This document shows positions 1 to 41,702 of a stretch of DNA of 64,000 nt, piece by piece. The stretch is from positions 58,743-122,742 of the forward strand of contig JACCGJ010001475.1 in assembly GCA_013407085.1 (NCBI GenBank). The letters run 5' to 3'. Positions within the stretch are counted from its first letter, which is position 1; each line of letters begins with the position of its first letter. The notes beneath the pieces are model-generated. The model did not search any database. It was not told the origin of the DNA and saw nothing but the letters and a program-made list of their open reading frames with translations. Source of the stretch: Atriophallophorus winterbourni. Lineage: Eukaryota > Platyhelminthes > Trematoda > Plagiorchiida > Microphallidae. The position numbers and the translations under genes are program-made.

Positions 1-818
1 GAGCCATCCACACAGTGCATCTTAGTCATGAGAATGATCATTTTTTGGAGTGCTCGAATCCCCGCCATTAACACTCCACATCCATCACTGGCAGTTTTCC
101 TTCGTCAAGTACACACAATGAGATAAGTAACAGGGAGCATTGAAACAGTGAAAAGGTAACAAATAATGTTATACTTGATTGCCATCGTCAGTCAGATTGG
201 CACGATCAAACTTTATATGACCAATCGGTGTGGAACGGTGTGGTGTGTACGAGCACTCCAAATAGTGTTGAATCCTAATTCTGCACCATAACGGTGTGTA
301 TGATTCGACCTCCAAACATCATAAAATTAAATATGACAGAATAGTACCTTGTTTCATTCGATTTATCAACTTTACTGCTCTGCGCTAAAATGGAGAAAAG
401 AACTTTCTCTATCAGTCCTACCGAGATTATGTGCAATTAAAATGGAAACTTATCGTTGTAAGTGCAAATATCCATTTACCGCCTACGAATTTTGTGAGAA
501 ATAGAAAGCTGAACTTAAATTTAATTCGAAAAGTTTGTAAAAACTGATGTCTGATCATATAAAAAGGATATTCTAAATGAAGTAGAACGGTCCCTAACCT
601 AGATATTTGGAAAATGTTGCTAGATACATTGAATTGCGATAAAATTATTTGAGCTGCGAAAGTTATCTTGAGGATAGTTAATAATAAGCTTTGATAGATT
701 TCTTTGTTAAATCTGCATCAAAATGTTAGCAAGATTTTATTTCGTCGTAATAGCTATCTTACCGCTATTGTTGTATCTGCTTATGACGCTGATTTTCTCA
801 TTAAACATTAAAAGCTGA
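1..818. other. No gene seen
   Basis: AT-rich DNA. No ORF with family resemblance and no repeat shared with the rest of the window that I could detect. Confidence 0.6.
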
Positions 819-982
819 TTGGTTGTTAACAAGGTGATACTTGTATGCCAACTGTTATATAGGGTTCGTACAACGAATCACGATGTTCAGACACAGAATC
901 ACAAAGTAATTATTGGTCATGCGCTCGAGGCGCTTAAGGCTGACCAAAGTATTGTGTTGCTCACATCACCATCCCTTACACA

Positions 983-1020
983 CCACTACCGGTTTCTGAC
1001 TGTTTGCCGTCGTCAGGTGG
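983..1020 (-). ncRNA. Hammerhead-like, CUGACGA subfamily
   Basis: Minus strand gives CUCCAC, CUGACGA, CGGC-AAACA-GUCA, GAAA, CCGGUA, GUGGUG. The cleavage triplet is GUA, which is allowed. Stem I has a C-G where the main family has U-G. The pair closing stem II (C/A) is mismatched, so activity is doubtful. Confidence 0.6.
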
Positions 1021-1170
1021 AGACAGTAAGATCAGGTTCAGTGAGCCTTGAAACAGTGTTTGAACATCATGGTCCGTTGTACGAACCCTATATATCAGTT
1101 AGCATACAAGTATAACCTTGTTTACCTTCAATCCACTGTTTCAAGACTCACTGAACCTGATCTTACTGTC

Positions 1171-1211
1171 TCCACCTGACGACGGCAAACAGTCAGAAAC
1201 CGGTAGTGGTG
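1171..1211 (+). ncRNA. Hammerhead-like, CUGACGA subfamily, inverted partner
   Basis: Same sequence as the copy at 983-1020 but on the plus strand, so the two form a head-to-head inverted pair. Another, more damaged plus copy (CUCGACGA, GAAACCCGAAG) lies at 1411-1453, 242 bp further on. Confidence 0.6.
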
Positions 1212-1499
1212 TGTAAGGGATGGGGATGTGATCAACACATTAATTTGGTCGTCCATAGGTGCCTCGAGGGCTAGATCAAGAATCACTTTGTGATTCTGTG
1301 TCTGAACATCGTGGTTCATTGTACGAACCCTACATAACAGTTGGCATACAAGTATAACCTTGTTTACCTTTAATCCACTGTTTCAAGGCTCACCGAACCT
1401 GATCTTACTGTCTCCACTCGACGACGGCAAACAGCCAGAAACCCGAAGTGGTGTGTAAGGGATGTGGATGTGAGCAACACATTACTCTGATTGGTTGTT

Positions 1500-1690: not shown

Positions 1691-1869
1691 AGGGCAAACA
1701 AAATGTTTGAGCGGAATTCAGTGTGATGCATGTGGACTACCAAAAATAATCTTTTACATTGAACTCACCGTGAGCTGCGCTAAAAGTGTTATTGATTCCA
1801 GACCGCATCTTAATGTTTCCATCAGGCTAAATGTATATTAACAATTTTACAAAGAATAAACCCTAAAAA

Positions 1870-2400
1870 TCTCTATTTGCATGCAGTTCCATCACAAACC
1901 ACCATACAACTATTCCGTGTTATTTACTCCCATCACGTTGAAACAGCTCTATCAGGATCCGTACAACTTGAGACCATGGAGAAGCGGTATAGAATGTTTT
2001 GAAATTGTAAGCCACTGTTGGACAAGGTTGGTATGTGCAAATTATTAACTAACATGTTGCCACACACATTCGGATGGGGTTAAATCTGTGGACTTAATTG
2101 ATAGACATGCATGCAATTGCAGATTTATGTTTCGAGCATGAGATTAACCCCATGCATTTGTGTGAGCAAATGCGATTGAGCGGGTTGGCTGTGCTAGCTT
2201 TATCGGAGGTTTGCTTACAAGTTCACATCATGCTTAACTATACTTCACTGCATACGGATACTGATTATACTGCCAGTATCGGCGAGTGCAAGCAGCACGA
2301 AACCGATCTTGGGTTTGTGCGTGTGATGGAATTCCAAGCAAATGAATATTTTTCTTGAGCAGGTGGGTTAAAACCGTCTACACCTGTGTGGGTAAATTTG
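1870..2400. repeat. Decayed hammerhead repeat units, inverted pair
   Basis: 1875-2090 is in minus orientation (tttgcatgcagttccatcac, then tcaggatccgtacaactt). 2265-2400 is in plus orientation with AAGCA-GCAC-GAAACC at 2288-2304. The hammerhead core CUGAUGA is lost (UCGGCGA). Confidence 0.6.
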
Positions 2401-5345: not shown

Positions 5346-5349
5346 TCTA

Positions 5350-6330: not shown

Positions 6331-8139
6331 CCTAGTCGTTGGCATAAACAGAATATGGGTTATTGACGAACATTTGATTTCAAGAGAGATATATATATAT
6401 GAAAACACTTGGCATCGTAATGTACATCCACGGTCGAGGTTGAGCGAAGCATTCTAAATATACCAACACCAGGTAGATATGCAAAGAAGTTTCATATGCT
6501 CTTTTTTCCAAAAAATGTTTATCATCAACTATCAATTGGTCGTAATGTTTGCTACCGTGAACTATTTTGCTTTGAATTGCAAAATTGAATGAACTTAAAA
6601 CATCCAGATTGCAATTGAACATAGATAAAAGTTATACTGCTACATATAATTTTTTTCGAGTAGACTAAAACGTTTTTTTTTAATTTTCCAACATATACAA
6701 AAATTCTAAAGTTACCACAACTCACGACGGTTGGGATTAGCCAAACTCGGTCTAGAAATTGCTATACACACGAGTGCTATGAAGAGGAATGCGCGAAACA
6801 TCTTTCTGAGTTGTCTGTTAAAAGGAAGAAATTCGTTTTCTCGTGTTTGGTCAAATGATAAGATTTAAAACATGCGATTAAAGTTAAACGCGTGAATCAA
6901 ATTGGATATTACAAATACACAACCTGATCTTACATCAGTGTGCAACAATTCTATTTGAGAATTATATTAACAACTGAAAAATCCAGAACTTCAATTGTTC
7001 AATTCCTGGCTTGATAGCCGTTCAGTCAATCACGAAATGCGGGAGATTTAAAGCTGCTACAGACTAATTCTTTAGCATTTTTTAATTTGGTCACTGACTA
7101 TACATGTACACGAATTAAGCAAATTCTTACTTTTTCTTTGGTTTAGTTCTTATTCTTAGCGTCAACATGCATATCAATATTAAGGTGGAGTCTAACTTAA
7201 TATTATTCTCGAAACAAATTAGTTGGAACAAGAAGCTGTTTTTTCTATAAAATTGATGCGCCTAATAGAAAATGATTTAACTTGACTATTTGCAATTAAG
7301 CATTCATTTACAACGTATCTTCAGTTCACTATCTGAACACAAATTTAAACCTGAACGTATTTTGCACTTACATTATATGTTGCTACGTTTGTTTGTGTAA
7401 AACGGAATGTGAGTAAAGGTAACACTCCTACCATATTTACAGAGATGTTTTCCATATATTATTAAGCATTAACCGCGATAAAAATAGTTGGATGATGTGT
7501 TCTATAATCTGTCCGTAAATGAGGAATCACATAGAGATATTTGATAGTCAACAACGATTTTTTATGTGTATACATTCTGATTCGGATTTAAATAATCTGT
7601 CACACAACCTTCAGAGCACGTTGCAGTACTACTTCCATAAGCAGCATTTTTCAAGTCTTTCGGTGTGCATATCACATCAGCTAACATCAGTACAACACTG
7701 TTTTTCGATTTGAAGTCTAACATTTCGTCTAAAACGAGAAGGTTTGCGGGGAAGAAGTTCACATGTTGTAAGGTGAAACATGTTTGCAAATATATTTTTA
7801 TCACAGACAATTAGCTTTCTGCAGTAATTGTAATTTTAATGTTCTATCAAAAAGAAACTCACTGTCGTTTTGCAAATGTTACGATTGTTTAATTAACGTG
7901 ATTAATTTATACTCACTTCTCAAAAGCCTCATTGGTTAAGCGTTGTGGATGAACCAATTGCATGCTTACGGAAATGTGGATCAATACAAACACATCATTT
8001 AAGGTCATAAACGGTCTGAGCTAGTACTACCGTTACTAAGGAAGAGCGATTTTCCGATATTAACACGTAATTAAAAATTTCTTAAGTAGGCACGCTACCT
8101 TATGCGAAATATGTATTATACCAAAGTGATGTTTTCCTC
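6331..8139. other. No gene seen
   Basis: AT-rich, with a short (AT)n run near 6388. No domain resemblance in any frame. Confidence 0.6.
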
Positions 8140-8590
8140 ACATCCCCCGAAATTACACTTCACTACCGGTTCTGGCTGTTTGCCGTCATCAGGTGGATAC
8201 CATACGATTAGGTTCAGCGTATTATACTAAGTTTTAGGTTTGAAAATAAATTTTGATAAAAAAATGCTCATTTGCATGCATTTTCATCACATAATACCGC
8301 GGGCGTGCAGTTTGCACTCATTAGGTATGGACAATAATATCAGGATCGCATTCGCTTGAAACGGTGGGAGAATGGGAAACAAGTTTATCTTCTATGTCAC
8401 TATTTCATAAAGTTGGTACGACCAACCTGTTTAATCACATGTGCCCAAACACATTTAGATGATGTTCAAAACCTTGATGATGAAAATATAATCATTTGCA
8501 TGCATTTTCATCACAAACATGCCATAGAACAAAGTACCAAAGTTAGCCAACAATGGCATAGAAGGAAATTTTAATAACTTTTATTCATTT
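8140..8590 (-). repeat. Tandem hammerhead repeat units, minus orientation
   Basis: Two to three partial units with hammerhead relics at 8159-8198 and 8289-8330. The shared unit segment gtacgaccaacctg appears as gtacgaccaacctgtttaat at 8416. Confidence 0.7.
8159..8198 (-). ncRNA. Hammerhead-like, decayed
   Basis: Minus strand: AUCCAC, CUGAUGA, CGGC-AAACA-GCCA, GAAC (one A lost), CGGUAGUG. A more damaged copy with CUAAUGA lies at 8289-8330. Confidence 0.5.
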
Positions 8591-9729: not shown

Positions 9730-10340
9730 CGAACTTAAATGCTCAGTTGCATGCATTTCCATGACATCCCAATACCGGTTGCGTATTGTAAGCACCCATC
9801 AGGTAGGGAGAATATGATCAGGAACCGCATGTGCTGTAAACCGTGGCAGAATGGTAAACAATTTGCGCGTGTATTTCATTGTTGGATAATGTTGGATCAG
9901 CCAACCTGTGCAATCACATGAGCCCACAATCACACCTTATTCAGCAGTAGCAAACAAGCGCAACTTGTTTACCATTTTCCCGCTGTTTGAAGTGCATTCG
10001 GATCGTAATCCAACTGTCCCTACGTGATAAGTGCAAACAGTCCGAAACCGGCGTGTGGTGTGTGTGTGATTTAAATGCATGCAAAAGACATTTCTTGTTC
10101 ATTGTCATAGTTTCAAACACTGTCTAACGTTGTGTGGGCTCATGTGATTGTACAGGTTGTTCGCGCCAACCTTACCCAAAAGTGGCATACAAGCGCTACT
10201 TGTTTATCATTCCCCACTGTTTCAAGCGCACGCGGATCCTGATTCTGCTGTACCTACCTGATGAGTGCAAACAGCATTAATCCGGTCGTGGGTTGTGTGG
10301 GCTAGAAATGTGTGTAAATGAGCATTTTTGTTCTACCTTT
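9730..10340. repeat. Hammerhead repeat units: one minus, then two plus in tandem
   Basis: The minus unit 9730-9935 (relic hammerhead at 9767-9808) meets plus units with relics at 10017-10060 and 10252-10294, a spacing of about 235 bp. The plus units share the hairpin-forming gccaaccttaccc segment and cactgtttcaagcgc. Confidence 0.75.
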
Positions 10341-10985
10341 ATCGTTGGATTACTTCAATTTGCATTAAATAATATCGTGTTGTGATACTTTATTTCTGCT
10401 TGCTTTTGTTGGATAACTTCTTGGTTTGATTTTGCGTTTATATGAAATTCTGTATCTAGGGCCTAGAACTGAATTTATTCAATGCATTTCTGAGAGCTGT
10501 GTTCAGTAGATTTATTGGCCAGCATGCAATGATATTCGATTCATGTACGATTTGAGATAATAATTTTAAATTTCTGAAACGTGTTGCGTTATATAAAATT
10601 GTTTAAAGGATTAAGTCGCTGATATTCCTATCGGAGCGCTTTTTGCAATTGAAATGAATGTCATAATTTTCTGTTAAAGTTGTCGTGTTTTTACGAAAAT
10701 CAATATTTATTTGTATTACCAGGCAATCCCAGACTTCTTCAACTAATCTGAAACTCAAAAATTCCATTAGGAAGAAAAAGGACAAAGATTTATTAGAAAA
10801 TTATCGGAGTTTCTGCTTCGGATTAGTGTTAAAAAAAAACACAACGAATACTGTGTGAACTACACATGAAATAAAAATAGCCGCAGAATATGTCCACATG
10901 ATATCACATGGGTACATGTGCTGAACAGATTGGTAGCACCAACCTTACCCAACAGTGGCATACAAGCGCTACGTGTTTAATAATA
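10245..10985 (+). mobile_element. Composite: hammerhead unit, ~560 bp body, start of second unit
   Basis: A plus-oriented hammerhead unit is followed by AT-rich DNA (10320-10890), then by the beginning of another plus unit (10890-10985, ggtagcaccaacc and acagtggcatacaagcgcta). Body parts recur downstream of other hammerhead units: 10320-10560 matches 18349-18570 and 10605-10905 matches 14075-14320. No long ORF is present. The arrangement resembles a non-autonomous element with hammerhead-bearing pseudo-LTRs, as in Penelope-like elements or retrozymes (inference). Confidence 0.55.
10252..10294 (+). ncRNA. Hammerhead-like, GAAA lost
   Basis: Plus strand: ACCUAC, CUGAUGA, GUGC-AAACA-GCA, then UUAAU in place of CGAAA, CCGGUC, GUGGGU. 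The 5' half is intact. The unit begins the composite element 10245-10985. Confidence 0.6.
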
Positions 10986-12454: not shown

Positions 12455-12560
12455 ATAATATGCAGATCCCGATATTACTGGCCCTACTTAATGAGTGCCA
12501 ACAGCACGATACCGGTCGCGGTGAGCGTGTGTGATGGCAATTCTTACAAATGAGCTTTCA
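12455..12560 (+). repeat. Partial hammerhead repeat unit
   Basis: Plus-oriented fragment with relic CUUAAUGA, GUGC-CAACA-GCAC, GAUA, CCGGUC at 12482-12525. Confidence 0.6.
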
Positions 12561-13399: not shown

Positions 13400-14070
13400 C
13401 TCTAGCCGCGTTACCAATCAGGATACTATTGCCCTACCCGATGAGCAAAAACAAAACAAAACGGTAGTGGTTTTGTTTGATGGAAATGCATGCAGACGCT
13501 TGTGTTTGTTCAAGAGCATGGATTTAAACTCATCTACATATGTATTTGATAGAACGGGTTGATCGTGTCAACCTTCTCCAACATTGAATTACAAGTTCAT
13601 ACCTTCTTTTCTTTTGATATCTTATTCTATTTTGATTAATTTAGTACTCAAATAAACGCACATTTAAACTCAATCGACAATAATATGTTTTTCAACATTT
13701 GCATAACTTCTTATGTATATAAACATGACACTATGTTGGATAAACGGTGTGTACGTGTGTGATGGAGATGCATGCAAAAATAGATATTTTGTTCAACCTC
13801 ATGTGCTTAGCTGTATCTAAACGCGAATTATGTATACTTTTCGTTGAACACATTAGTGATATCGGCCTTATTCAAAGTGACTCAAAAATTCGGACTTTAT
13901 GCATCGTTTCTCTACTTTTTCAAGTCATACCGATCCTGGTCGTTTTGTGCATACCTGAAGAATGCAAACGACACGAAACCAGTCTTGACGTATGTGTGAG
14001 GGAACATAGAAATATGTTTATTCGTAGAAGAATTGTTTCGTTTTTTGCTTTAAATTTTAAATAACTGAAA
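13400..14070 (+). repeat. Decayed hammerhead repeat units, plus orientation
   Basis: Relics at 13430-13480 and 13948-13992 (CUGAAGA, GAAACC retained). The unit start segment gggttgatcgtgtcaacctt lies at 13555-13574. The 105-codon frame at 13747-14064 runs through the second unit and is not a gene. Confidence 0.6.
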
Positions 14071-14325
14071 ATTTTTTAAGGAATTAAATCGCCGGTATTC
14101 CTATCAGAGCGCTTCTTGCAATTGGCATGAATGCCATAATTTTCTTCTAAACTTGTCTTGGTTTTTCTTGACAACTTTTGTGAAACTCAGAAATTCCATT
14201 TAGAAGAAAAAGGACAATGAACGAAATTTCAGCTTCGGACAAGTGTTAAAAGAAACACAACAAATTATGTGTGAAATACACATGAAAGAAAAATAGTCAC
14301 AGAATATGTACACATGATATCAACG
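14070..14325 (+). repeat. Second copy of the composite body segment
   Basis: Matches 10605-10905 at roughly 75 percent by eye (tattcctatc, gagcgctt, aattccat, aagaaaaaggacaa, acacatgaaa). It directly follows a hammerhead unit, as in the 10 kb copy. Confidence 0.6.
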
Positions 14326-16799: not shown

Positions 16800-17015
16800 T
16801 TAACATAATTTTAGTGATAAAATGATTATTTTCATACATTTCCATTACACACACCACGACCGGTTTCATGCTGTTTACACTCATTAGTTAGGAACAGTAG
16901 GATTAAGAGCATAACACTTTGAACAGTGTCGAAATGGTAAACAAGTTTCGCTCGTGTGCTAATGTTGGATGAGATTGGTACGACCAACCTGTACAATTAT
17001 ATCCGTCCATCAAGA
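16800..17015 (-). repeat. Hammerhead repeat unit, minus orientation
   Basis: One unit containing the relic at 16853-16894 and ending with the palindromic ggtacgaccaacctg segment. Confidence 0.7.
16853..16894 (-). ncRNA. Hammerhead-like, decayed
   Basis: Minus strand: CUAAUGA, GUGU-AAACA-GCAU, GAAA, CCGGUC, GUGGUG. Only one core base (G5) is changed. Confidence 0.55.
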
Positions 17016-17399: not shown

Positions 17400-17910
17400 A
17401 ATATATTTGTATTTTTCAAAAAATGCTCTTTTGCATGCATTTCCATTACATACACCACAAGATCAGTTTGTGCTCTTTTCCCTCATCAGGTAGGGACAGT
17501 ACTATCAGGATCCGCATGAGCTTGAAACAGTGGAGGATTGTTAAAAAAGTAGCGTTTGTATGACACTGTTTTATAAGGCTGGTACGACCAACCTGTTCCA
17601 TCACATGTGCCCAAACACATGTACAATGGGGTTAAACCCATAACCATGAAACAAAATATTCATTTGCATGCTTTTCCGTCACACACCCAACGACCGGTTT
17701 CGTCCTGTTTGCACTCATCAGGTAGGGACAGTAAGATCAGGATCTGCATGGTTTTGAAACAGTGTGAAGAATGGTGAACAAGTAGCGCTTGTATGCCCCT
17801 GTTAGATATGGCTTGTACGACCAACCAGTTTAATCACATGTGCCAAAATACATATGTAATTGGGAAGAACAATCTTGAGCAAAAATGCTCAGTTGCATGC
17901 ATTTTATTTG
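17400..17910 (-). repeat. Tandem hammerhead repeat units, period ~232 bp
   Basis: Two minus-oriented units. tcatcag of the first hammerhead (17483) and of the second (17715) are 232 bp apart. Both units have ctgcatg/cgcatg, gaaacagtg, tacgaccaacc and cacatgtgcc landmarks. The second carries the intact core at 17685-17727. Confidence 0.8.
17685..17727 (-). ncRNA. Hammerhead ribozyme, core intact
   Basis: Minus-strand reading has stem I CCCUAC, CUGAUGA, a GUGC-AAACA-GGAC stem II with one mismatch, GAAA, CCGGUC, and return strand GUUGGG with one mismatch. It is the second unit of a tandem pair with period ~232 bp. Confidence 0.78.
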
Positions 17911-18059
17911 CTTTAGCGATGACAATTTAAGAAATTTAAATGTGAATACATATCGTTCCCTTACTTAAAATTTACAGTGCAACTGAATGAGAGTATGTTT
18001 ATTGTAATAAATATACATTGATATTCTACAAATTTTCGTTCAATGATTCATGTTCTGTT

Positions 18060-18600
18060 AATATCAATTATATTCTAAATGTGTGGATGATGGAGATGCA
18101 TGCAAATGAACATTTTTGTACATGATCATGAGTGTCAACACTATGTACATGTGTTCGGGCTCATGTCATTGGACAGGTTTGTCGTAACAACTGTAACTAA
18201 CAGTGGTATACAAGCGCTCCTTGTTTACCATTCCTCCACTGTTTCAAGCGCATGCGGATCCTTATCTTACTGTCCCTACCTGATAAGTGCAAACAGCACG
18301 AAACCAGTCTGGTTGTGTGTGCGATGGAAATGCATGCAAATGAGCATTTTTGTTCTAAATTTATCGTTGGATTTCTTTAATTTGTATTGCATATAATCCT
18401 GCTGTGTAACTTTTTCCTACTTGCTTTTGTTGCATAATTTCATGGTCTTGATTTTAATTTTATATGAGAGCCTGTATCGACGTCCTAGAACTGAATCTAT
18501 TAAATGCATCTCAGGAAATATATTGGCAAGCATTTAATGATATTTGATAAATCTATGATTATAATAATAATTTCGATAATACAAAATTTAATTTTCCTAA
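18060..18600 (+). repeat. Hammerhead unit plus downstream body segment
   Basis: A plus-oriented unit with the near-intact hammerhead at 18273-18315, followed by a segment (18349-18570) matching the body of the 10 kb composite (atcgttggat, acttgcttttgttg, cctagaactgaat). Confidence 0.65.
18273..18315 (+). ncRNA. Hammerhead-like, one core mutation
   Basis: Plus strand: CCCUAC, CUGAUAA, GUGC-AAACA-GCAC, GAAA, CCAGUC. Stem II is perfect; G8 is lost and stem III and stem I return (UGGUUG) are weakened. Confidence 0.6.
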
Positions 18601-18939: not shown

Positions 18940-19215
18940 TTTTTTAACTTGCTTATGTGCATACATTTCCATCAGACACATCCCACGGCCGAGTTTGCGC
19001 TATATTCTCTCTTCAGGTAAGGCAGGTAAGATCAGGTTCCACACGCGCTTGAAAGAGTGAGAGAATTGAAAACAAATTACGCTTGCTGCTGGATACTGGT
19101 ACCACCAACCTGTTCAATCATATGTGGCGAGACACATGTATATAGGTTTTAAACCTATGATCATGAATACAAATGCTCATTTGAATGCATTTCCATCGCA
19201 GACACCCCGCACACG
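18940..19215 (-). repeat. Hammerhead repeat unit, decayed
   Basis: Minus-oriented unit with landmarks ggtaccaccaacctgttcaa and caggtaagg. The hammerhead core at 18980-19024 is destroyed. Confidence 0.6.
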
Positions 19216-19879
19216 TCCAATCTGATTCCAGACTTTTCATCAGATTGAAGTGATTGGCCATCGTGTGCAGACTGGAGCATCTCAAAGGCTGCTACAAAAA
19301 TAATTGTTTTCTAAATTGTTACTTTTTAAATGACCTTCAATCATTTGTTAACGTGAGTAAATTTTAAACATTTAGAATATTCAGGGTTCATTTCATACAC
19401 ATAATGATATGCCGAAGATGCATTAACGGATAATCAGAATAATTTTATTCAGATCATCAGTTACCCGACAATATCTACAACGACTATGAAAGGCAATGCA
19501 ACGGGTTTGTTTATATAAAGCAAAAAGGAAGAATAATTAGGTATAAAAATATGTGAGTAATTATCACAAACTCCATTTCACAAAAAAATTAAATACCTAG
19601 TTATGTGGAAATATCTTTAAGAAACTTCCATTTTCATATTGAGAAATTAGTTTGAAGACATACTTTATTGTATTACAGAATATGATAGAACATAATTTAG
19701 CGCTGTTTTCTCGTATCGGCACCCAGAATTTTGGGTAACATAGTGTCATAAATATTATTTCTTGTAGCGGAGACAGATTTTGCAAAAAGATCAAGAGGTA
19801 CAGACCACATGATGATGAAATGCCTTTAATACAAGATAATTCACAACTTTGGTGTTAAAATTGTAATGGTTGCTGATGT
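19216..19879. other. No gene seen
   Basis: AT-rich; no supported feature. Confidence 0.55.
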
Positions 19880-23560: not shown

Positions 23561-25966
23561 CTAGAAGCCTGTACAAACAACGTCATTGACGGTAGGACAG
23601 AATCTGCGGTTTGGCGAAGACTTCTTTAACTTAATATTCTTCCAATATTTGCATTAGGACCATCGCTCTTTCTGGATAAGCTTTAAAAGAAAGATCAAGA
23701 ATCGTTTGTTTACATAGGCAACTTCGTAACTTTTACATTTATTCTGATAACATGATCCAATTACGCTTGTTTTTCAGCCGGATCATATTCATGTGCAAAA
23801 TGCATGAAACCAGTCATTTGATCAAAAATAAATGTTAGGCAGTCATTTGTTTATCGAGAATGTAATAAAAAACATGTATGTAATAAAACATATCCGCCGT
23901 AGCAATAAGCACCCATCATTTAATGCAGATATAATCGGCTGCATACGTGGAAGTACTTTTAAAAACTCCCTCAATCGTTCAACTATTTGAAGTGTTAATA
24001 TATGTGTAATTTAGTGCTTTTAATTCGTTTAGAGTCTCGTTTACACAATTTATGAACACGAGATGCTTATATGGGGTCAATTTGCACGTGTACTCAGATG
24101 ATACACCTTTTAATGTCCTTAAGTGAAGCTTCGCACGTATCGATCTTGTGATAATACCCACTCTGTTTATGTATGCATGGCCTGAAGCTCAAATTCGACG
24201 TAGTTTACTTAATATTGTGATCGTTTTTTCTCACAAACTGTAAACTGTGTTATACATTTTTCCGCTAAAAATTGGCCTAGAAAACTAATTAACTGCCAGC
24301 AAAACCTCAAGCATTATCAGTTTCCTTCTATTCCACCAAATGAACCGCATATAATTTTTGCGGAACAAATAAAATTTTCCAACGACTATTCCCAGCACTT
24401 ACATTCAGTCCATATTAAATAAAACGCGACATTTAGAGATTCAAAGAATTAGTATGTTGCCTGATTCGATGAATATCTCGACACGGATACAGTTTGCTAT
24501 CATATTCGTGACATGCATGTTAAATCTCAAATTAAGCGAACACGCTGAAATGAGGTAATTAATTAAGTATTTAATTAAGATCAAACGATTTACTGCCGCT
24601 GGTTTGAGTTAAACAATGCTGATCGTCTCGGAATTAACATTTTCTAGAATAACGATTTTTCTCGTTTCCTATTGCATTCCTAAAATAAATAATAAGCATA
24701 TGGCAGTACAACCAACATTTCAATCTGAAACCATCAATGGTTAGCTCTCTATAAGTTCGATTTAAACCATGAATAAGGCTTCCTTACAATACTTGTACCA
24801 TAGTTTATGAATATATAGAACGCCCAAATAGTTTTATGGCCCTTCACTCGTAAGATACAAATTAATATTCATTGCTTAGAGAGCTGAGCTCACAAAGGCT
24901 GACCTTGTGTTTGACTTCATTTACTCAAAACGACAAAGGCTGGACTCTGATTAAGTTAAATTTTTTATTTTCATTGGTACTCGTTTTAAAACTCTGCATG
25001 TTAGAGTTTAAGGATTACAAGTTTATTTTTCCCAGATATCCCGACCACCTAGGGGTTCACACAGAGGAATTTCGATTAAAAGGAGCATTTATCGAACAGC
25101 TAGACAACTAATGCCCTCAAAACGTGGAACTTTCATCCGGAAAATGTGTGATGATTACCAAATAAAATTTTGAGTCTACATCAGAAATTATCGCGATTTT
25201 GTCTTTCTTCCTTCGAAGTCAAACAGTCATGATAATCATGATTGAGAATAACCTCAAATAACATATATTTAATTTAGAGTTTGGCAACAACAGTGACTTG
25301 TGAATGCATGATATTTTGGTGAAACATTGTAAGAAGTGAATGTGTGTTATACTGAATTACTTGAAAAGCACTTACGAGTTTCGCAAATGTCCATCAATTG
25401 TACGAAACTTATCTAAAATGAGGTAGAATTTTTCCAAGAAGTTTGCCCCAAAACCTATTCGATGGAGTTTATACTGCAAGGTATTCAAAGTAGCGCAATG
25501 TCCTGAATGCACTAGAAGGCATTAAGCTCAACGATGGTAAAAATTGAAAATTAAGTGTATAAAAACAATTTAAGCAAATACGTTAAACATTCGGGAAACG
25601 GATAATTATACAGAACTAGTCTAATTTAGTTTTAGGATCATGCAAGTTAGTTGAGTGAACCACGTAAAAGAGACGTTTGCAGATTATAAATAAGTTTTAC
25701 AATTTATTAGCCAATGGGATAAAACCAGCGTAATTCCGCGTAACCCTTCGCGTGAACAATCCCTGAGAGGAATGGCTTGATGTACGTAATATTTTGTAGA
25801 GTATGATAAGGTCTCCTCTGATTCGTCTTAATGCAAAGTCGAACATGAGGATGTTAAATACTAGTTTTGTTGAGCGGTGATAGACTCATTGTTTTGCGAC
25901 TACTCATCAGTAACTAGTCATTCGAAATATTCAGAAAGATTATCACAACGGTCCACATTTGAAGAA
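23561..25966. other. No gene seen
   Basis: The longest LINE-free stretch in the left half. A 79-codon frame at 24872-25111 has no recognisable content. Confidence 0.6.
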
Positions 25967-26285
25967 CCGGACTCGAGTTTCGCTATTATTTGAGCTCATT
26001 AGCAGCGCATATCCTGTCTTGGGTCGGATTCGAACACGGGAAAATCACCGTTGTAGGCTTTCGCCTTACGGCTTGAGTCAAGGAGATCAGATCGGTTGGA
26101 CGACCATAACCGTTCTTGCAGGCTCCTTCTCGACTGGTCCCGCATATGACCCTACTCAGTCTGGAGAAACATTCAGGAAGGCTTAATCACAAACGGTCAA
26201 ACGATGGACGGTTCGAATCCGACCCGAGATATGGTATGCACTGCTGATGAGCTCAACTAAGAGCGAAACTCTAGTCCAATGCTAC
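25967..26285. mobile_element. Head-to-head pair of tRNA-derived SINEs
   Basis: Arms of about 70 bp (25967-26037 and 26205-26280) are reverse complements. Each contains a pol III B-box-like gttcgaatccgaccc, one per strand, facing inward with tRNA-like sequence between (minus: aaggcgaaagcctacaac; plus: ggaaggcttaatcaca). The outer parts share gagctcatnagcag and gcgaaactct. Confidence 0.6.
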
Positions 26286-26389
26286 CAATTTTGACTAATG
26301 TGATAAAACTTTGTTAACATTTCGAAGGATTTTTTCTTATGAGTGGTCGCAAAATATTTATTCATGACCCATTTGGAATAAATTTGGCA

Positions 26390-26930: not shown

Positions 26931-28599
26931 TATATCTTTCGAATGTTCGTTTGCGGTACTGTTGGAGATTAATGGTACAGCTCATGAAACTCACAAAGCA
27001 TCACGAAGTTTTGTTAATGTTTCTCATGTTTCGTTAAAACGCAAAGAATAAGATTAGTATATTAGATCTATCTAGTAGTGAACTGATTTCATGTCGTTGA
27101 ATAACATAAAACTTGCGTCGGAAATAGATAAAAAAATTTATACCTTGATAAAATTGTGAAAAGGAAGTTCATGAATAACAAAATCTTTAATGACTATTTT
27201 CCTTGCCGAAAATATTCATAGACTGATTACGCATAGTAGTAAATAAAATAACGTATTTCACAAAATCTCGTTTGTGGGCATCTAAAGAGTAATAGTGTGT
27301 TTTTCTAACCATGTACAAAATTAATGGTCATGATGTCGGAAATAAAAAAATGAATGACGCTCTGAGAATATTGAGTGTAGTAAATGAACGAAAATCTAGT
27401 GAGAATCGAAAGTGTTAACTGACGGATGCGTTTATTAAACGGAACATAAAAATCACACTTCCCCAGTACTCACACAAGAAAAACGTACGTGCCAGTAGTC
27501 ATCAATTTTGGATTTTAGCAGCAATATGTAATCTAAATTCAGAAAATTAATTGATATGATAATGTAATTAAACAGGTTGATGCTGCCAGCTCTTCACCAA
27601 TGGTCGCCTCAAACTTCAAGCATTGGTTATATAATTCCCTTTGCTTTAATGCGTTCGGATCCTGATCAAACGAACATTAATTGATATGTGTGAACAGGAA
27701 TGAACGTATCGTCATTTTGGTATACCTAAATGCAATCAAATACAGAATTTATTGCTCAGGTTTTTGGGTATTATCTCATTCCCAACTTGTAGTCGCGACG
27801 TATTTAATGCAAACGTTTGGCCATGTCAGCCTTATGCAACGGTGACCTTCAAGTTCCCGGTTTGGTTTACTTTTCACTACAGTCTCAGTGTTTTAGCATC
27901 CTGATTCTGGTGAGCTATTTTATAATTTCTCATTTATGAATAAGGCATCAACATAGCAAGCAGTCTGGTTCACTCATGCGATTGAGAAACCCTACAATAG
28001 ATTGTATCTTCTTAGTTGCATAACATACCGAAACTTGATGGTCCACAATATATTGTGTTACTCGATACTCCCGAAAATTCCAGTACGTAACAGTTTACGT
28101 AGAGGAGATAAATGTAGTATCATGTTAACATGAACGAAAGGTAAACGGGATCAACATATTGGCGAATTTTGCTTAGCAATTATAAGCTAAAATAAGCTAT
28201 AGAAATGACAGACAAATGATTTACTTGATCAACTAAATAAAATGAAGTTGAATAAACGGAAAATACCAACATAATATTATTTACCGCTAGGTACACTAGA
28301 TCGATCGATATAAGTAAAATCACTCAACACTAATCTTTTCATGTGTGGTAAAATTGGCGTACACCCGATTGCATGTGTTATTCAATGGTTGCTCTGTGGT
28401 TGTGTCTGACAAACTTGCTCTTGGTGCTCATTCGCGTGAAATTGTAGTTATTGAGGTCTATTAAATGTGTTTTAAATTACCTCCGTTAAAAATCTCCCGA
28501 TCTGTTTCACAAAAGGCAGTCAAACTTTATAGCAATCAAATGTTACTCAGCAAATATACAACAAACATATTGATTTCTTCCGGGAACTGACATGACTTA
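26931..28599. other. No gene seen except repeat relics
   Basis: AT-rich, with only the faint hammerhead repeat relics near 27.6-28.0 kb. Confidence 0.55.
27580..28000 (+). repeat. Very decayed hammerhead repeat relics
   Basis: Only fragments such as gcgttcggatcctgatc (27652-27668) and agcatcctgattctggtgag (27895-27914) resemble the unit. No hammerhead core remains. Confidence 0.35.
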
Positions 28600-30240: not shown

Positions 30241-30359
30241 TCAAATTTGTGAACCGTTCTCCAGCCAATTCAATCACATGAGCCCTTACTCATGTAGACT
30301 GGGTATACAACCCATGACCATGAATAAAGAAGCTCATTTGCATGTATCTCCATCACAAA

Positions 30360-30401
30360 CCCCACGACCGGTTTCGTGCTGTTTGCTTTTATCAGGTAGG
30401 G
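30360..30401 (-). ncRNA. Hammerhead-like, core mutated
   Basis: Minus strand: CCCUAC, CUGAUAA (invariant G8 replaced), AAGC-AAACA-GCAC, GAAA, CCGGUC, GUGGGG. Stem I is a perfect 6 bp. It lies 233 bp from the intact copy at 30593. Confidence 0.7.
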
Positions 30402-30592
30402 ACACTAGGATCAGGATCCGCATGCGCTTGAAACAGTGGAAGAATGTTAAACAAGTTGCGCACTTATGTCATCATTGGGTAAGGTTGGTACGACCAACCT
30501 GTTCAATCACATGACTCCCGACTCATGTAGACTGGGTTTAAAGCCCATGACCATGAATAAAGTAGCTCATTTGCATGCATCTCCATCACACA

Positions 30593-30634
30593 CCCCACGA
30601 CCGGTTTCGTGCTGTTTGCACTCATCAGGTAGGT
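30593..30634 (-). ncRNA. Hammerhead ribozyme, intact core (best copy)
   Basis: Read on the minus strand: stem I ACCUAC, core CUGAUGA, stem II GUGC-AAACA-GCAC, core GAAA, stem III ACC/GGU without a real loop, cleavage triplet GUC, stem I return GUGGGG. Five of six stem I pairs form (one A/G mismatch at the outer end) and all invariant core bases are present. A stem III this short is typical of hammerheads in Penelope-like elements and retrozymes, which act as dimers (family knowledge). The CCGG at its tip is self-complementary and would allow this. It sits inside the tandem repeat block 30240-30890. Confidence 0.85.
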
Positions 30635-30806
30635 ACAGTAGGATCAGGATGGTCATGGTTATAGGTTTTAAACACAGTCTACATGATTGGTAGCTCAGGT
30701 GATTGAACATGTTGGTCGTACCAACCTTACCCAACAGTGGCATAAAATTGCAGCTTGTTTTCCATTGTTCCACTGTTTCAAGCGCATGCGGATCCTGATC
30801 CTACTG

Positions 30807-30850
30807 TCCCTACCTGAAGAGTGCAAACAGCACGGAACCGGTCGTGGGGT
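30807..30850 (+). ncRNA. Hammerhead-like, two core mutations
   Basis: Plus strand: CCCUAC, CUGAAGA, GUGC-AAACA-GCAC, GGAA, CCGGUC, GUGGGG. All helices are perfect; the GAAA has become GGAA. CUGAAGA only changes free position 7. Confidence 0.7.
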
Positions 30851-30889
30851 GTGTGATGGAGATGCATGCAAATAAGATTTTTTATTCTT

Positions 30890-32290
30890 TGTTCTCCAGC
30901 CTGTTCAGCTATTCGTTGCTTAAGAGTGTGGTACCAAAAGATTGGAAGTCCGGCATGGTAACACTTATTTTCGAAGGCGGCTGCCGATCTGACGCAGCAC
31001 ATTATCGTCCCGTAACACTTTTACTTGTTATTGTCTCGAAACAAATCGTTGCACACTTTGAATCGCATAACTTAGTTTTGCCAGCGCAGCATGGATTTTG
31101 ATCTCACTGATCTTGTCTCACAAATCTTCTCGTGGCCTTATACGACTGGACGAAGGAGTTGGATAGATGTTCTTGCATCCACGTCTGTTACCTAGACATT
31201 TCGAATGCTTTTGACAGAGTCAATCATCATTTGCTTCTTCAAAAACTGATGCGTTTAGGAATATGTGAACCACTCTTATTATGGCTGTGCGACTATCTGT
31301 CAGATTGCAACACCCAAGTTAAAGTTAACGGAGTGCTATCACAAACGTTCAAAACCACCAGTGGAGTCCCACAAGGATATCTGCTGCTCGCTCCTCTTTT
31401 CGTTGTACATAAACGATTTACCCCCCTCATACTGTTTCTGTTCACGGATGATATGAAAATTTGGAGGCCAGTTAGTTCTGCAAAGGATTGTGCGAAACGG
31501 CAAATGGATTTGGACAGCGTGTCGAATTGGGCGGTCATGAATGACATGTCATTCAACATACAGAAATGTAAGATGCTCCATTTCGGCAAGAATTTTTCTA
31601 GGACATATCGATTGGGAACTAAAAAACCATCATGGAGCTCGTTAGAAAAAGATCTTGGAGTGTGGATTAGCGGAAACCTGAAGAGCACCATGCACTGCCA
31701 GAATATATATCGACGGGCAAACAGATTGTTAGGTATCTTTCAAAGAATATTTGGAAGATTCTCTCTGGTAACGTTACTGAGGATAGAGAATGTCAACCTT
31801 CGCTCTACGATGGAGTATGCGATAGAGGTCAGAGCTCCTTGGCTGCACAAAGATATTGCTCTCTTCGATATAATCTATCAGCGCAACAAAGTTAGTGATG
31901 GGTCTTCGCAATGTTCCGTACACCAAAAGATTGCGACGTTTGGGTCTATGCGACTTTACCCAAAGGAGGATACGACCTATAAAATTGTGGCTACTAAAGG
32001 GCATCCACTAAAACACTTGCTTGATTTGTGTGACACGCGGACATACCTTATCCCTTAACGTTCCAAGTTCTTGTGTTGATTGTCTGTGCCGAAATTTTGT
32101 AGACTTTTCTTGCCTGGCGATTTTTAAAGCGAACTTGCAAACGAACATCATTCGTGAGACTTACATTCGATATTCTCTATTGATTTTCATACTATTGTAT
32201 TTTTCATGATTTCATTCATGCCGTAACCCCGAGGAGTTGTAAAGTATTAACCTTTTCAACCATAAATCCTTGAATCCTTAGCCCACGTGC
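30890..32290 (+). pseudogene. CR1-like LINE RT, long frame with mutated active site
   Basis: From VPKDWKSGMVTLIF and CRSDAAHYRPVTLL through a stop near 31100 into a 308-codon frame (31132-32058): CYLDISNAFDRVNHH, TSGVPQG, LFTDDMKIW (FADD changed to FTDD), FNIQKCKMLHFGK, DLGVWISGNLK. The 3'UTR ends near 32290 with aaatccttgaatccttag. Related to the 20.9 kb family. It abuts hammerhead units on its left. Confidence 0.85.
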
Positions 32291-34660: not shown

Positions 34661-35042
34661 AATTTTCATGGTGAGAATGCAACCTAGGTAGTGAAAACTC
34701 GTAAACATAAACTGGCTAGTGCGTTATCGGTTTTTAGGACCAAATAAGTTAGTCCGTATCAGTCATGATCGGAAAAACACCAAATTTCAGCTTCTCAGTG
34801 TTGTCAACGGTTTGATAAAGGAGTTTGAGATTTGCAAATTCGAGGATAAATACTCATTTGCAAATTTAAATTTAGCTTTTATGTGAAGACTAATCTAAGT
34901 CCCACAGTCGGTGCAATGCAGAACCGATAACCATTTAGAATATTTTTGCAACATTCCCATAACAGAATGATGGTAGTTTTTTTGTTTTAAAGTCAGATTT
35001 TTTCAATAAGTGGTATATGACGTTTGAAAAGCAGGACGGAAT

Positions 35043-35084
35043 CACACGACCGGTTTCTCGTTTATTGACGCTCGTCAGGTATGC
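35043..35084 (-). ncRNA. Hammerhead ribozyme, divergent variant with compensatory changes
   Basis: Minus strand: stem I CAUAC, core CUGACGA (position 7 is a free base in hammerheads), stem II CGU-CAAUAA-ACG closed by G and A, GAAA, ACC/GGU stem III, GUC, return GUGUG. Both stem I and stem II differ from the common copies yet still pair: a C-G becomes A-U in stem I and stem II is rebuilt. It is isolated from the other units by several kb. The surrounding DNA is not recognised. Confidence 0.7.
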
Positions 35085-35799
35085 GTATCCGAGACCTGGC
35101 ATTCGAACGCCGTTCTAAATTTGTGCTAAGCAGAGGTGGAGTTACCCCTCTACAATGCAATAATTTTGCCACATCTTGAATACTCTATTTAGGCTTAGAG
35201 GCCATATTACCAGAAGAATCGAAAGCAGAAATGTAAGGTACAGAAACTGACCTTTCTCACGGCCGTGTGTTTGGCATGCACCAACCATGAAAATCGTATA
35301 TTAACATCATGACTTCTCGCGCATAAGAAAGTGCAGCCTCGAAACTAACGCATATAATCCTTCAAAGTTGTCAAGTGATTAAGCCCTGTCGAATTTGATG
35401 GCTTCTATCGGTTCTCTCCCCTGGTTGTTACACGATAGCATAGTCTCTAGCTGAGTAAACAGCACACCAGGATAGAGTCTATAGCGCATTTTTTGACATC
35501 CGTGTAGAAACGCGTTGAACTGACTTCCCATAGAACTATTCTCAGCAGCTTCATTAATTACGTTTAGATTTGGACTGGACAAATGTTGGCAAGTGCTCTA
35601 CCACAAGCATATCCCATATAAATAAATCACTATATTTTTACTGACAAAAAAACAAAAATAATCTGCTTATATTTTTCAAACGCGTACAAGCGTTTCACGA
35701 ATCGTCCTATATCGTTATGTATGTTTGCATTGTATAGTCTTTTTATATTATATACTCGTAACCCTTTATACAACCATTCCTTTTTCTTTTTAGCCATAT
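35085..35799. other. Unrecognised stretch next to divergent hammerhead
   Basis: A 67-codon minus frame (35379-35582) ends GREPIEAIKFDRA. It has a protein-like look but I do not recognise it; it could belong to an element that also carries the hammerhead at 35043. Confidence 0.35.
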
Positions 35800-38700
35800 A
35801 CTTTTCAGTTCAATTTAGTTCAGTTCAGTTGGCACAGGACTGTAAATGGCTAATAAACCAATCGAGCGTTCAGAATTTCGGTCGCTAAGAAACATTTTCA
35901 TGCTAATTCGATCATGCCAAGTTGCATCCAAACTTCTTTTGATCGCACCTACCTATATGCAAGAGATTAGTTCCACTGACAGCCTATTCCAGATGCTTAC
36001 CACTTTTACTGATGACGTGTTCTATAAAATTCAGACGATTGTGTTTTTTCTAGCGAGCTTTATTGTATGCCATCTAGTTAAAGGGTTGATCGCTCAAAAG
36101 AAAAAAATTTATTACACGTGGCCTAGGCCTTTCAGTATTTTGAAGATTCTTATTAGGTCACCCCGTAGATGCCGACGCCAAGGTGAGAATAGACATAAAA
36201 ATTAGAGGTTCCTAGTAGGGTTTTCCTGACATAATTTCAACCATACTAGCGTTGAACTCCCTAAAGTGGTAACATGTCTTTTTGAAAGAAAGGGCTCCCG
36301 GCTTGCACGCATCATTCTAAATGTGGCCAGACAACCACCATATATAAGGAAATAAACCACCGCCGTTCTACATGTCATAACAGATTTAGGCATACGGTGA
36401 TCTATTCAAACTAGTTGTGCAGCTGAGGCGCATTGCGCATCCAATTTGAATCCGCTGTTTTGACTATACCTAAATACTTAACCCACAGAATAGATTTAAA
36501 GTCGATCTTATTGCTATTGGCATTCACTCTAATTTTGTCGACTTATGCATAATATGCTATAGTTCATAGGAAGATCCCAATACTCTGACCATTAATTAAC
36601 CTTTTCGATATCTCTTAACAGATCACCGTTATCAATGTATCCATTAAATTTGACATAATCTGCAAACATTTAAGAAGGTCGTGACAACTGATATGCCAAC
36701 TCATCGATGAAGATCACGAAGAGTATTGTGCCTAGTTGTTCACCCTGTGGGACTTTAATGGTCAAATGGCGAATTCCGAGAGAGATTCGCCTACACGCAC
36801 TTGGGTGGAACTATAACGAATGAAACTGGTTGTCCAGTCGTAAAGCTTACTGGATAAACCTTTTTCTGCGAGATTCAACCTTTAGAACCAGCAACTGACC
36901 GAGTCGAATTAATTATTAAAGTCTAACAAGAAGAACTCTACCCGTCCGCCTTTGTCTTTTTTCATGGAAACTCTATCAAAAAAGTATAAACGATTCGAGA
37001 AACACGAACTTCATTTAAGAGAGAGATGTTGAACCGTGCTTAATGATGAATTGTGAAAGAGGTGGCTGCATAAACGGTCCGTGATTAGTCTATTCAAGTT
37101 TTTGGATAAAACACTATTCAAGCTTATCGGTCGGAAATTGGTAACCGTGTTTGTGGAACCTCCTTTTGTCATGGGTACTACAAGGGCATTCTTTCAGTCA
37201 TCCAAGAGGATACCTTTGTAGAGCGAATCATTATATAGACTACAAAAATGCTTTGTAAGTACCATAGACATCCATTCTATGTACACTTTGAACATAATCC
37301 AGGAAAGCTGTTGACTCGTCGGAGTGAGAACTTTCTCACCATTGTCTAATATCATGGTACCTACGTGCTCCACCGACTTACCTCTAGACTAGACGTAACT
37401 AAAATACTTCTTAGGATTCATTTTAGCAGAGTTTGCCAGGTAGGTTTCGTATCGTCGCTCAAGCCTCCGTTGTATCTTAACTGTGTTGTTTCCCAAAGCC
37501 TTATAGCACTAATTATTTCTGTCAGTCAGAAAGGCTGTGTATATACTCAGTTTCCGTCCCACCAAATAATATTGCGTCGCACAACAGAAGTCCGCCAAAG
37601 TGGCTTGTTGCTAAGCCGTGCATGTCGGAAAAGACAGTGAATGTATTGATGACGAACGCTATTGCGCTTCATAACTGACCATATACATGGTCGCTTCACC
37701 ATAAATGTGATTTGTAGGAAAGGTTTTGGACATTTTAATGACCTTTAGGCAGAACAAGGTCTAGTGCAAATGGTGAAGGCCCATCTATGTGCCTAGATTC
37801 CCTAATTACGTGCTGATGAAACGCACAATAGTTTCTGGTCCTCATTCTTAGATGCACCCAAGGACCTGTATAAAACAGCCTAATGCAAAAGTGAACTTAC
37901 CAGTGTCGAGACCAGCTGGACTCCGAGGGTAGCCATTTTGATGGCAGACTATATGTATTCAATACCATGCTGTGGGAGTATTAGAGATGCTCTTTAGCGT
38001 CTAAAATATGGCATATCCTTTCTATGAGCTTTATAGGTCGAAAGAAAATCAACGTGGAATAGTTTCTGCATCTTGAAGCAATTTGCATTAATTCCAGCCA
38101 TTTACTAAGCACGCTGCAAGCATTTGCGTAAAGTATGCTTTGTGCATTTTCATGTGTGGCCCCTGATTTTGGAGAACCCTCGGGTGCAGCGCACGAGGTA
38201 CTACCGAGTTTTTCGTATCCACATATGATAGCACAATAGTACTTTATGCGCAATCTACGTCGGTTTGCGTGTAGTGGTTCTTAATAGAGCGGCGTTGAGT
38301 GCAAACGAAGCCAGGCTTTCGTTTACTGCACCGCAACTTATCAAAAAACCCACATGTGTTTTCCAACATCACTTGAGCATTCCTCATAGAAATTATACAG
38401 TTGCAGAGTTCATTCGTTGGCGTTTTTGGGGTTTTCCTCTGGCTCCGCTGCAATGCCTACCGAACCATGGAACGCGAATTATTTTACCGAAGCTGGGCGA
38501 TTGTCGGGTGCCAATCTATACCAGCCCATTGTATTGGTATGTATTTGGTAGTTTTTGGAAAAAACAAGTTTCTGTCACAAAGATTTTTGAATTCGAAATG
38601 TTGCTGGATTCTTGCTCATGTTCGAATTACTGTCTCTTCCAGAGATTGATTGTCTGTACCTAAACTGACTGAATATTAGGATTAAGGTCTGCTAATCGCA

Positions 38701-39576: not shown

Positions 39577-41700
39577 GTTTCGCGCAGTAAGTTCAACTTG
39601 GTTGTATTTCTCACGCTCTGTTTTAAAAACCAATACGAATTTTCGCTATTCTACGAAATTGCTGTAAAATAGACTATTAATTTTACTACATTCTAGAAAG
39701 CAAATCGCTCATTATATTTCCTGCAAATTAATTACGCTTGCGATAAAATCAGTCTTAAATTTTTCTGGTACATTATCGTTATTCATAATTCTCGCTGTAA
39801 GATGTTGGTTGAATTTTCAAGGTCCACACAGACGTTTGCTTCTTACGATATTTTGATAATTCTTCAAACGCACCGTCGAATTTGTTTGGCCTGGCATCTG
39901 ATGTCCATGTATTAGATGAGTTGACTTTCAATGAAGCTGAGGTGTATAACGCACTTATCCATGTTCGCGTCAAAAACTCTGAGGGACCGGATGGCATTCA
40001 CACAATTATGCTTACAAATCTTGCCTCAGTGCTTACCGAACCGTTTTTCCAGCTCTTTAATTAATGTTTGCAACTGAGGGTGTTTCCCAGTAAGTGGAAG
40101 GGAGCCATAGTCGTGCCAATACACAAAGGTGGTTGCAGGCCAACTCTTTGGAACTATAGACCTGTCAGCCTGACTAGCATCGTCTCAAAAGTACTAGAAA
40201 AACTATTGCGTGACGAAATCTGTCAGCTTCTTAGTCAGCATTCTCTGTTGAATGTAACTCAACATGAATTTCTAAAGGGTAGATCCTGCCTGACTAACCT
40301 TCTTAGTTTTCTTGATACTGCAACTAAAATGCTAGACGAAGGAAAGCCAGTCGATGTCCTCTACTTAGATTACAGCAAGGCTTTTGATTTCGCAAGCCAC
40401 CGACTTCTAGAGTTAACGCTAGCAGCAAAGGGCATACAGGGTAGTCTACTTGCTTGGATAAAAGCATTCCTCAAGGGTCGGAACTCGGCCCTGTTCTATT
40501 CATAATCTTCATTGATGACTTGTCATCTGCCTTGAAGTTTACATGCTTCATTTTCGCGGATGATGTGAAGTTCATAGGATCAACGGATGTAGATACCCTG
40601 ATGCATGACCTTGAGCGTGTCATAATCTGGTCATACTAGTGAGACATGTCACTGAACCTTAATAAGAGCACACGCTTGTCAGCATTGGATGATAAGATTT
40701 CGGTCCAGGTGTCGGGAAATTCTCTCAGTGTTAACGCAGCACAGTGTGTTAAGGATTAGGGAGTACTGGTTAGGGCTGACTTAAAATATACTGATGCGGC
40801 TCAGCGTGCACGCAAGGTACTTTTCGGCTGTAATCAGTGCTATCGACCAGAGGACCCGATGTATTTTTACCACTTTACAAGGCATTAGTTCGGCCATCAC
40901 TCGAATATTGTGTTCAGAGGTGGTGTCCCCACTACAAATATGACATCCTTTGACTTGAAAGCGTACAGCGCCTCGCAACTCCCATGATTGAGGGTCAACG
41001 AGGGAAACCGTACGCTGCGCGCCTGGTGTCTATCGATCTTTTCTCACTCAGGCGCCGTCGTTTAAGAGGTGACTTAATTGAAAACCTTTAGGGCCCTGAA
41101 GGTTTTGAGTGGCGTGTCAATAAACGTTTTCTTTACATTAAGTCCCGAGCTAAGCACACTTACAATTGCTAAGAAACGATTTTGGCTTGACTCTAGGAAA
41201 AACTTTTTCAGCCCGAGGGCTGTAACCTTCTGGAACATTCTTCCAGAACAACTTATATCCTGCAGTAGCGACACGAGTTTAAGGCATGGTTTGGACCGCA
41301 ACTGGGTTAAATTTTATCCTGAATACTCTCTCTAATTACTATACAAGCTTAGGCAGTTCACCATTCAGCGTTATCCCGTAAATCAAGTAAAGGCTAGTGT
41401 TCTCTGTGTTTTTATTATACACGATTCTACTTCAGCTGACCTCTCACCGTGCTGGTGAATAGAAACTGCTTTTTTCTTTTTTAAGCATCGGTTATAACGC
41501 GGTGCCCCCTAAATACAATCCGCATTTTATCTTGGACTCGTGATCGTCGAATATTTCAAATTGACAAAAAGAAAAAAACGTTTAGGTAGTGGTGAGTGCT
41601 TTTTTTACAGCTTTCCACCAAAATAAATCAGGGACGCTCGATTGGCTCGTTAGCCACATACTGTCCTGTGAAAACTGAACTGAGCTTAACTTAACTTAAC
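39577..41700 (+). pseudogene. TGAAC-tailed LINE, internally deleted copy
   Basis: 39577-39800 matches the 5'UTR of the 47.6 kb copy, then the element jumps to the RT linker. ORF1 and the endonuclease are gone. RT: LTFNEAEVYNAL, SEGPDGIHTIML, NYRPVSLTSIVSKVLEKLL, YLDYSKAFDFASHRLLE. A second deletion near 40477 removes about 25 residues before SELGPVLFIIFIDDLSS. The catalytic CFIFADDVKFIG is intact. The thumb is truncated. The 3'UTR 41340-41700 ends gaactgagcttaacttaact. Confidence 0.88.
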
Positions 41701-41702
41701 TA

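Follow-up and report, generated by a model that had tools for sequence, protein, structure and literature searches.

A stretch of 64,000 nucleotides from the fluke Atriophallophorus winterbourni (hereafter the window) contains about 20 elements built from a unit of ~233 nt (39 profile matches, grouped by eye), the consensus of which forms a complete type I hammerhead with all core residues and stems present. We consider it probable that this unit represents an animal retrozyme, a retroelement that neither codes for protein nor moves autonomously and which, taken as a joint proposition, is cut by a double hammerhead, copied in trans by a Penelope-type enzyme, and inserted through two-sided priming. 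The paper that established metazoan retrozymes as a class goes no further than calling Penelope-like elements a strong candidate for their mobiliser (PMC7229834); many copies of the 233-nt family bear Penelope-like insertion marks, which makes the mobiliser question testable through element boundaries and a single purified enzyme.

Copies were collected with an iterated nhmmer profile, whose 39 window matches lie on both strands and include one that is partly a palindrome artefact (30590-30780) and one that is weak (35043-35083, E 0.0014). The preliminary description of this DNA had proposed an interspersed repeat family carrying hammerheads, and the consensus, Rfam, and a motif descriptor now agree on such a family in this flatworm genome. 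Its estimate of about 21 copies holds in that copies are many, the actual count being 24 that span the hammerhead plus the weak 35043-35083 match, and these occur on both strands. The consensus hammerhead reads CCCUAC CUGAUGA GUGC AAACA GCAC GAAA CC GGUC GUGGGG, and its canonical core is kept in only two of the 24 copies, at 30593..30634 and 17686..17727, both on the minus strand. These two (the latter then placed at 17685) had been reported as complete, which is correct for the cores, but stem II of the 17686 copy contains a G.G mismatch. The 30593 copy has a complete core and stem II, and the 5' strand of its stem I is UACCUAC; the CCCUAC previously given for the shared fold belongs to the consensus and to the 17686 copy.

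Significant covariance-model matches had been anticipated for both minus-strand hammerheads. With the Rfam type I model, 17686-17727 (35.9 bits against a gathering threshold of 34) was the sole window match above cut-off, and two matches fell below it, namely 30593-30634(-) (26.8 bits, E 0.027) and 30808-30849(+) (29.6 bits, E 0.0031), the core of the latter being degenerate (CUGAAGA..GGAA). The bare pattern CTGATGA..GAAA occurs three times in the window, at 17698-17721(-), 26244-26268(+), and 30605-30628(-), against 0.74 expected, and 3 of 100 shuffles also gave three. A stricter descriptor including the core and stems I and II, composed after the copies had been inspected, recovered the same three sites and none in 400 dinucleotide-shuffled windows, which rules out a chance motif as the origin of the hammerheads; the third site, at 26244(+), is a member of another hammerhead family (see below). 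A subfamily, represented by window copies at 1038, 1154, 1396, and 8213 and at some loci elsewhere in the genome, displays a CGGC/GYCA stem II with a C.A pair at its base and mostly a GUA cleavage triplet.

Metazoan non-LTR retrozymes, according to PMC7229834, are low in GC and carry a type I hammerhead in short units (150-450 bp) repeated in tandem, including units of 220-240 nt in coral and 233 nt in one jellyfish, and retrozyme-like repeats are reported there for platyhelminths in general. The 233-nt unit shares the hammerhead type, tandem unit size, and low GC content (44.6%, below 50%) of these retrozymes. A type I hammerhead within a tandemly occurring unit of 150-450 bp, together with target duplications that exceed 4 bp where present, agrees with assignment to this class. 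No long frame was found in a concatemer of the unit (at most 67 aa sense and 107 aa antisense).

The stem III letters ACC/GGU of the preliminary description were right, but they form the palindrome ACCGGU without a loop, such that pairing in cis is limited to one A-U pair closed by CCGG. This palindrome suits a predicted two-molecule (double) hammerhead, as in newts, and folding energies favour the dimer action suggested earlier: the consensus double hammerhead is modelled at -40.3 kcal/mol, close to the cofold minimum free energy (MFE) of -42.3, against -10.0 for the monomer hammerhead with an MFE of -18.1. In individual copies the double hammerhead is less favourable, at -31.7 versus a cofold MFE of -38.5 for the 30593 copy and -23.3 versus -41.7 for the 17686 copy. 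A circular consensus folds better than its shuffles (z -3.14) with 64% of positions paired compared to 63% in shuffles, and the fold of one linear copy was no better than shuffles (z -0.19). According to PMC7229834, the newt and axolotl HHR_Amex1 likewise combines a one-pair helix III with a palindromic tetraloop and acts as a dimer, although its unit is 330 bp long and both host and sequence differ; the stem III of the 233-nt unit is of the amphibian kind, and not of the longer invertebrate kind described there. A predicted newt-like dimer hammerhead would be placed in a fluke genome, beside a SINE-like hammerhead family that is also often arranged head-to-head.

The insertion at 30267..30891 is a 625-bp composite in which a minus array (30267..30650, about 1.65 units with two hammerhead copies, including that at 30593) meets a plus array (30653..30891, about one full turn of the unit, with the degenerate-core hammerhead at 30808) head-to-head. 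It is flanked by an exact target-site duplication, TTCTCCAGCC, at 30257..30266(+) and 30892..30901(+), which is 10 or 11 bp long as the G preceding the left copy also matches. The composite looks like one insertion: alignments to reverse transcriptases (RTs) cross the joined empty site, with P0126 aligning at E 3e-49, and the target is a LINE-type RT sequence, which we take to be CR1/Jockey-like. The portion of these alignments left of the join is only ~10-25 residues long, and beyond it the sequence corresponds to the C-terminus of such RTs; the target may hence be the border of two LINE copies.

Four further head-to-head pairs are present in the window, at 808..1488 (the subfamily, with a GUA cleavage triplet in 2 of 3 hammerhead copies), 1865..2353, 9737..10338 (9737-9932 minus, 9934-10338 plus), and, with a 176-nt gap, 17419-18351; no adjacent tail-to-tail pair was seen in the window. 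The last of these pairs consists of an array of about two units (17419..17904, minus), which includes the 17686 hammerhead, and a ~270-nt plus-strand copy (18081..18351) that starts ~5 nt after the cleavage site and finishes at the common 3' end. The remaining elements comprise single minus-strand copies at 8260..8518 (about 1.1 units, with a 5' end close to the cleavage site), 16819..17009, and 18946..19247 (between ~75-nt direct repeats), two short copies of the hammerhead region only (8123..8220, minus, 98 nt, with a 12-bp flanking duplication including one mismatch; 12460..12558, plus), two degenerate copies in one orientation (13412..14018, plus), an old degenerate copy (27558..27913, plus), another degenerate one (32..215, minus), and a unit fragment (10892..10984, plus). 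When 19 window intervals were tested for flanking duplications, five gave p<=0.03, two matches lying off the boundary not being counted. Parts of a ~570-nt region are shared downstream of several copies (10338-10906, 14068-14322, and 18358-18573, with 10338-10566 resembling 18358-18573 and 10595-10906 resembling 14068-14322), which weakens the apparent 8-bp duplication of the 18081 copy; a larger element uniting the unit with this region is conceivable.

Element ends are unevenly distributed along the unit. In the window, 12 of 20 elements have their 3' end at unit positions 89-101, i.e. 37-49 nt past the cleavage site (p about 1e-10 under uniform ends, for a bin picked after looking). Of the 20 5' ends, five fall in the first 17 nt beyond the cut (p 0.013) and another five 170-182 nt beyond it (p 0.004), for bins chosen post hoc and with several ends set by eye.

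The 537-Mb genome assembly was then queried with the unit as DNA, yielding at least 127 unit matches (40 of 3063 candidates scored) and loci L011-L040, of which L019, L023, L025, and L038 appear to duplicate L015, L021, L014, and L026, leaving 26 distinct loci. A head-to-head pair within 160 nt is present in 14 of these, including the window's own L011. Of 93 copies that span the hammerhead, 39 keep the canonical core (CTGANGA..GAAACCGGT[H]), and in 22 of these every position of stem II is paired, the loci having been picked for similarity to the window unit with a resulting bias to young copies. Ends were compared across 46 arrays, a set that omits L011, L019, L023, L025, L038, L036 (tandem throughout), and arrays at locus ends. 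Here, 28 of 46 3' ends fall at unit positions 83-104 (31-52 nt past the cut; post hoc bin), and seven 5' ends at positions 50-59 (p 0.003; post hoc bins, several ends by eye); a further 5'-end cluster at positions 1-5 may be an artefact, as both query and model start there. Adjacent arrays of opposite orientation are more often head-to-head (13) than tail-to-tail (3; p 0.011).

Target duplications were assessed for 35 composites or single arrays (omitting L011, L019, L023, L025, L036, and arrays near locus ends, with L038 kept), and 10 of them gave p<=0.03 for a null rate of 3%. Seven of them come from the 12 head-to-head composites and three from the 23 remaining cases, with L026 and L038 representing one event. 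The duplications of head-to-head composites span 8-14 bp. Examples from the ten are 14 bp exact in L014, 13 in L018, 12 in L030, and 11 in L035. In L018, the composite has inserted into an older member of the 233-nt family that resumes after the 13-bp duplication. The common 3' end is found at both outer sides in 6 of 14 composites (L012, L014, L022, L027, L032, and L039, one arm of the last being 34 nt), on one side only in seven, including 30267-30891, and on neither side in L013. L036 is a tandem array of 13 full units and two cut units. The unit was also found in 6 of the ten loci fetched for the SINE-like family, head-to-head in L004, L005, L008, and L009, and in L005 also with a tail-to-tail neighbour.

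We propose that the type I hammerhead would cleave transcripts with at least two units, most probably in the form of a double hammerhead held together by pairing between two ACCGGU palindromes, to yield a unit-length RNA that may be circularised. An RT acting in trans would copy this RNA from a preferred internal site ~40 nt past the cut. With priming at both edges of a staggered break, two copies would meet head-to-head and 8-14 bp of target would be duplicated. The mobiliser is likely a Penelope-type RT/GIY-YIG enzyme, as suggested by an insertion anatomy that resembles Penelope-like elements and is the sole link between the two. Inverted head-to-head repeats, short duplications, and a short post-hammerhead stretch are together what Penelope insertion would leave, although they are not unique to it.

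Penelope inserts are described in PMC3846280 as inverted, mostly head-to-head pLTRs with duplications of 8-10 bp and a 31-bp tail, and purified Penelope RT is reported in PMC11167929 to begin synthesis inside the RNA, downstream of the hammerhead cut, and to cut and extend both DNA strands. Compared to the accounts in PMC3846280, PMC6155905, and PMC11167929, the 233-nt family shares head-to-head inverted repeats, short duplications (8-10 bp in those accounts), a short tail, and a minimal hammerhead without a real helix III, whereas its unit contains no RT or GIY-YIG frame. In the anole element the start codon and the cut are 26 bp apart, and in the 233-nt unit the predicted cut is 27 nt from an ATG, a weak likeness since every CUGAUGA contains an ATG. 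Weighing against a Penelope mobiliser, PMC11167929 further reports for this anole element that hammerhead mutants were without effect on in vitro insertion and that no RNA-seq reads start or stop at the cut, and cross-mobilisation between Penelope types was not seen in the rotifers covered in PMC3846280. More tentatively, retrozymes may be moved by Penelope two-sided target-primed reverse transcription of ribozyme-cut RNA, in which case palindromes would arise from two RTs working at one break from the same internal site and the 5'-end pile-up would reflect germ-line cleavage; we regard this combination as possible but doubtful, the anole hammerhead-mutant result counting against it.

GIY-YIG loci fetched from the genome carry frames that are presumably of canonical Penelope type, and no full-length Penelope element was identified among them. 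No hammerhead was found at these loci (descriptor on 17, Rfam at E<=0.1 on 15), nor with Rfam in four longer stretches, which also speaks against the Penelope link. Two of the 17 loci, L042 and L044, contain fragments of the unit that follow the endonuclease by 380-540 nt and share its strand. In L058, a subfamily copy with a hammerhead-like core (L058:7123-7218) precedes a GIY-YIG frame of the same orientation by 1.9 kb and falls just beyond the stretch that L058 shares with L059. As the window itself contains about one element per 3 kb, these neighbours were not counted as enrichment. Inverted pairs are present at some GIY-YIG loci. One locus, L061, displays a 2-kb inverted pair (1869-3852 and 4133-6134, 97% identity) around outward-reading GIY-YIG frames.

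Alternatively, the same retrozyme could be moved by LINEs of the CR1 or RTE type, with head-to-head composites representing 5' inversions by twin priming, and PMC7229834 names both LINEs and Penelope-like elements as candidate mobilisers. The window is rich in LINE-type RT and endonuclease frames, and twin priming fits the 7 of 14 composites with a one-sided common 3' end, 30267-30891 included. LINE twin priming yields only one such end, however, and both sides carry it in the six composites listed above. Poly(A) is absent from the 3' flanks inspected, but CR1 and RTE elements are not known to require any. Overall, we regard mobilisation by LINEs as unlikely but deserving consideration. The common 3' end could also be set by the RNA itself, if a Pol III transcript terminated at the T-run GAGCATTTTTG, rather than by an internal RT start. 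The consensus does place this end directly after T5, and T-runs of at least five occur in 6 of 13 terminal versus 2 of 15 internal copies; this difference, however, falls short of significance (p 0.067 by Fisher's test and 0.14 by a rank test, with some internal stretches cut short), and the B box GWTCRANNC is absent from the 233-nt consensus, which leaves Pol III termination improbable.

Less probable still is a plain satellite whose hammerhead-like sequence never cleaves. Most window copies are indeed broken, and their core is conserved no more than the rest (p 0.21). Covariation is weak in an alignment of 23 of the 24 hammerhead-spanning window copies, and no selection on the ribozyme was seen among window copies, which also counts against the main reading. 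Such decay is expected if copies degrade after insertion, and a satellite of this kind is at odds with the canonical consensus and the intact copies found elsewhere in the genome. Finally, a fold-back or MITE-like DNA element with hammerhead-like units in its terminal inverted repeats would account for inverted composites that carry target duplications, but is disfavoured, and the least credible of all, given the variable 5' ends, the single-orientation copies, the ~98-nt copies of one end only, and the 13 full units that stand in tandem at L036.

Returning to the retrozyme assignment, the portion of PMC7229834 consulted makes no mention, for metazoan retrozymes, of duplication-flanked head-to-head composites or of a preferred 3' end beyond the cut. 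Among the papers listed from the open-licence literature on fluke and flatworm hammerheads, retrozymes, and Penelope structures, we recognised no description of the 233-nt family or of head-to-head retrozyme insertions. It is plausible, rather than proven, that the family is undescribed, as the preliminary description had ventured: the comparison drew on literature descriptions, and PMC7229834 already mentions retrozyme-like repeats in platyhelminths. Beyond that description, the present analysis adds the ACCGGU palindrome, the head-to-head anatomy, the target duplications, and a second hammerhead family at 25890-26359. Three patterns searched in viral contigs gave no match.

This second family is SINE-like and forms a head-to-head pair in the window (25890-26067 minus, 26160-26359 plus), with a complete-core hammerhead at 26226..26299(+) that was recovered by the descriptor and scored 36.6 bits with the Rfam HH9 model, below its cut-off of 52. 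In the genome, it accounts for all ten best of 32 matches that the Rfam type I model gave when 74 of 96,317 candidates were scored. A B-box-like stretch, GGTTCGAATCC, precedes the window hammerhead at 26211 and is similar in 6 of the ten loci (by eye), and ARAGORN detected no tRNA in eight loci of the family. Five of the ten loci (L001, L002, L005, L007, and L009) display a head-to-head arrangement; matching flanks (p<=0.012) were found in L001, near the ends, and in L002, 15-17 nt outside, and none in L005, L007, L009, or the window pair. The schistosome SMalpha/W-element is likewise described as a fluke SINE-like carrier of a type I hammerhead (PMC8490949, PMC4918200), and the second family can be likened to it through the B-box-like stretch before its hammerhead, whereas the 233-nt unit, without a B box, is set apart from SMalpha at the level of these descriptions. 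A third hammerhead-like element, at 35025..35093(-), has a degenerate stem II (25.1 bits and E 0.069 with Rfam HH9, short of the cut-off) and joins an upstream GTTCGAATGCC with the ACCGGU stem III typical of the 233-nt family.

Elsewhere in the window, one RT frame has its best named matches in Schistosoma and Trichobilharzia at 42-44%, with metagenome proteins reaching up to 67% over the full length, whereas among named proteins a second RT frame is closest to those of Paragonimus (56-79% in five matches). Two regions with RT frames, at 39579-41702 and 47607-52274, are related to each other, sharing 78-83% identity over ~2 kb. The sole sign of a host gene among frames given to Pfam is an ORMDL-like exon at 35846-36205 (E 0.0023, below Pfam's cut-off), for which a protein search returned no match. 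A 255-bp palindrome (87%) at 56804-57058, with sub-threshold matches to miRNA models, is probably a fold-back repeat.
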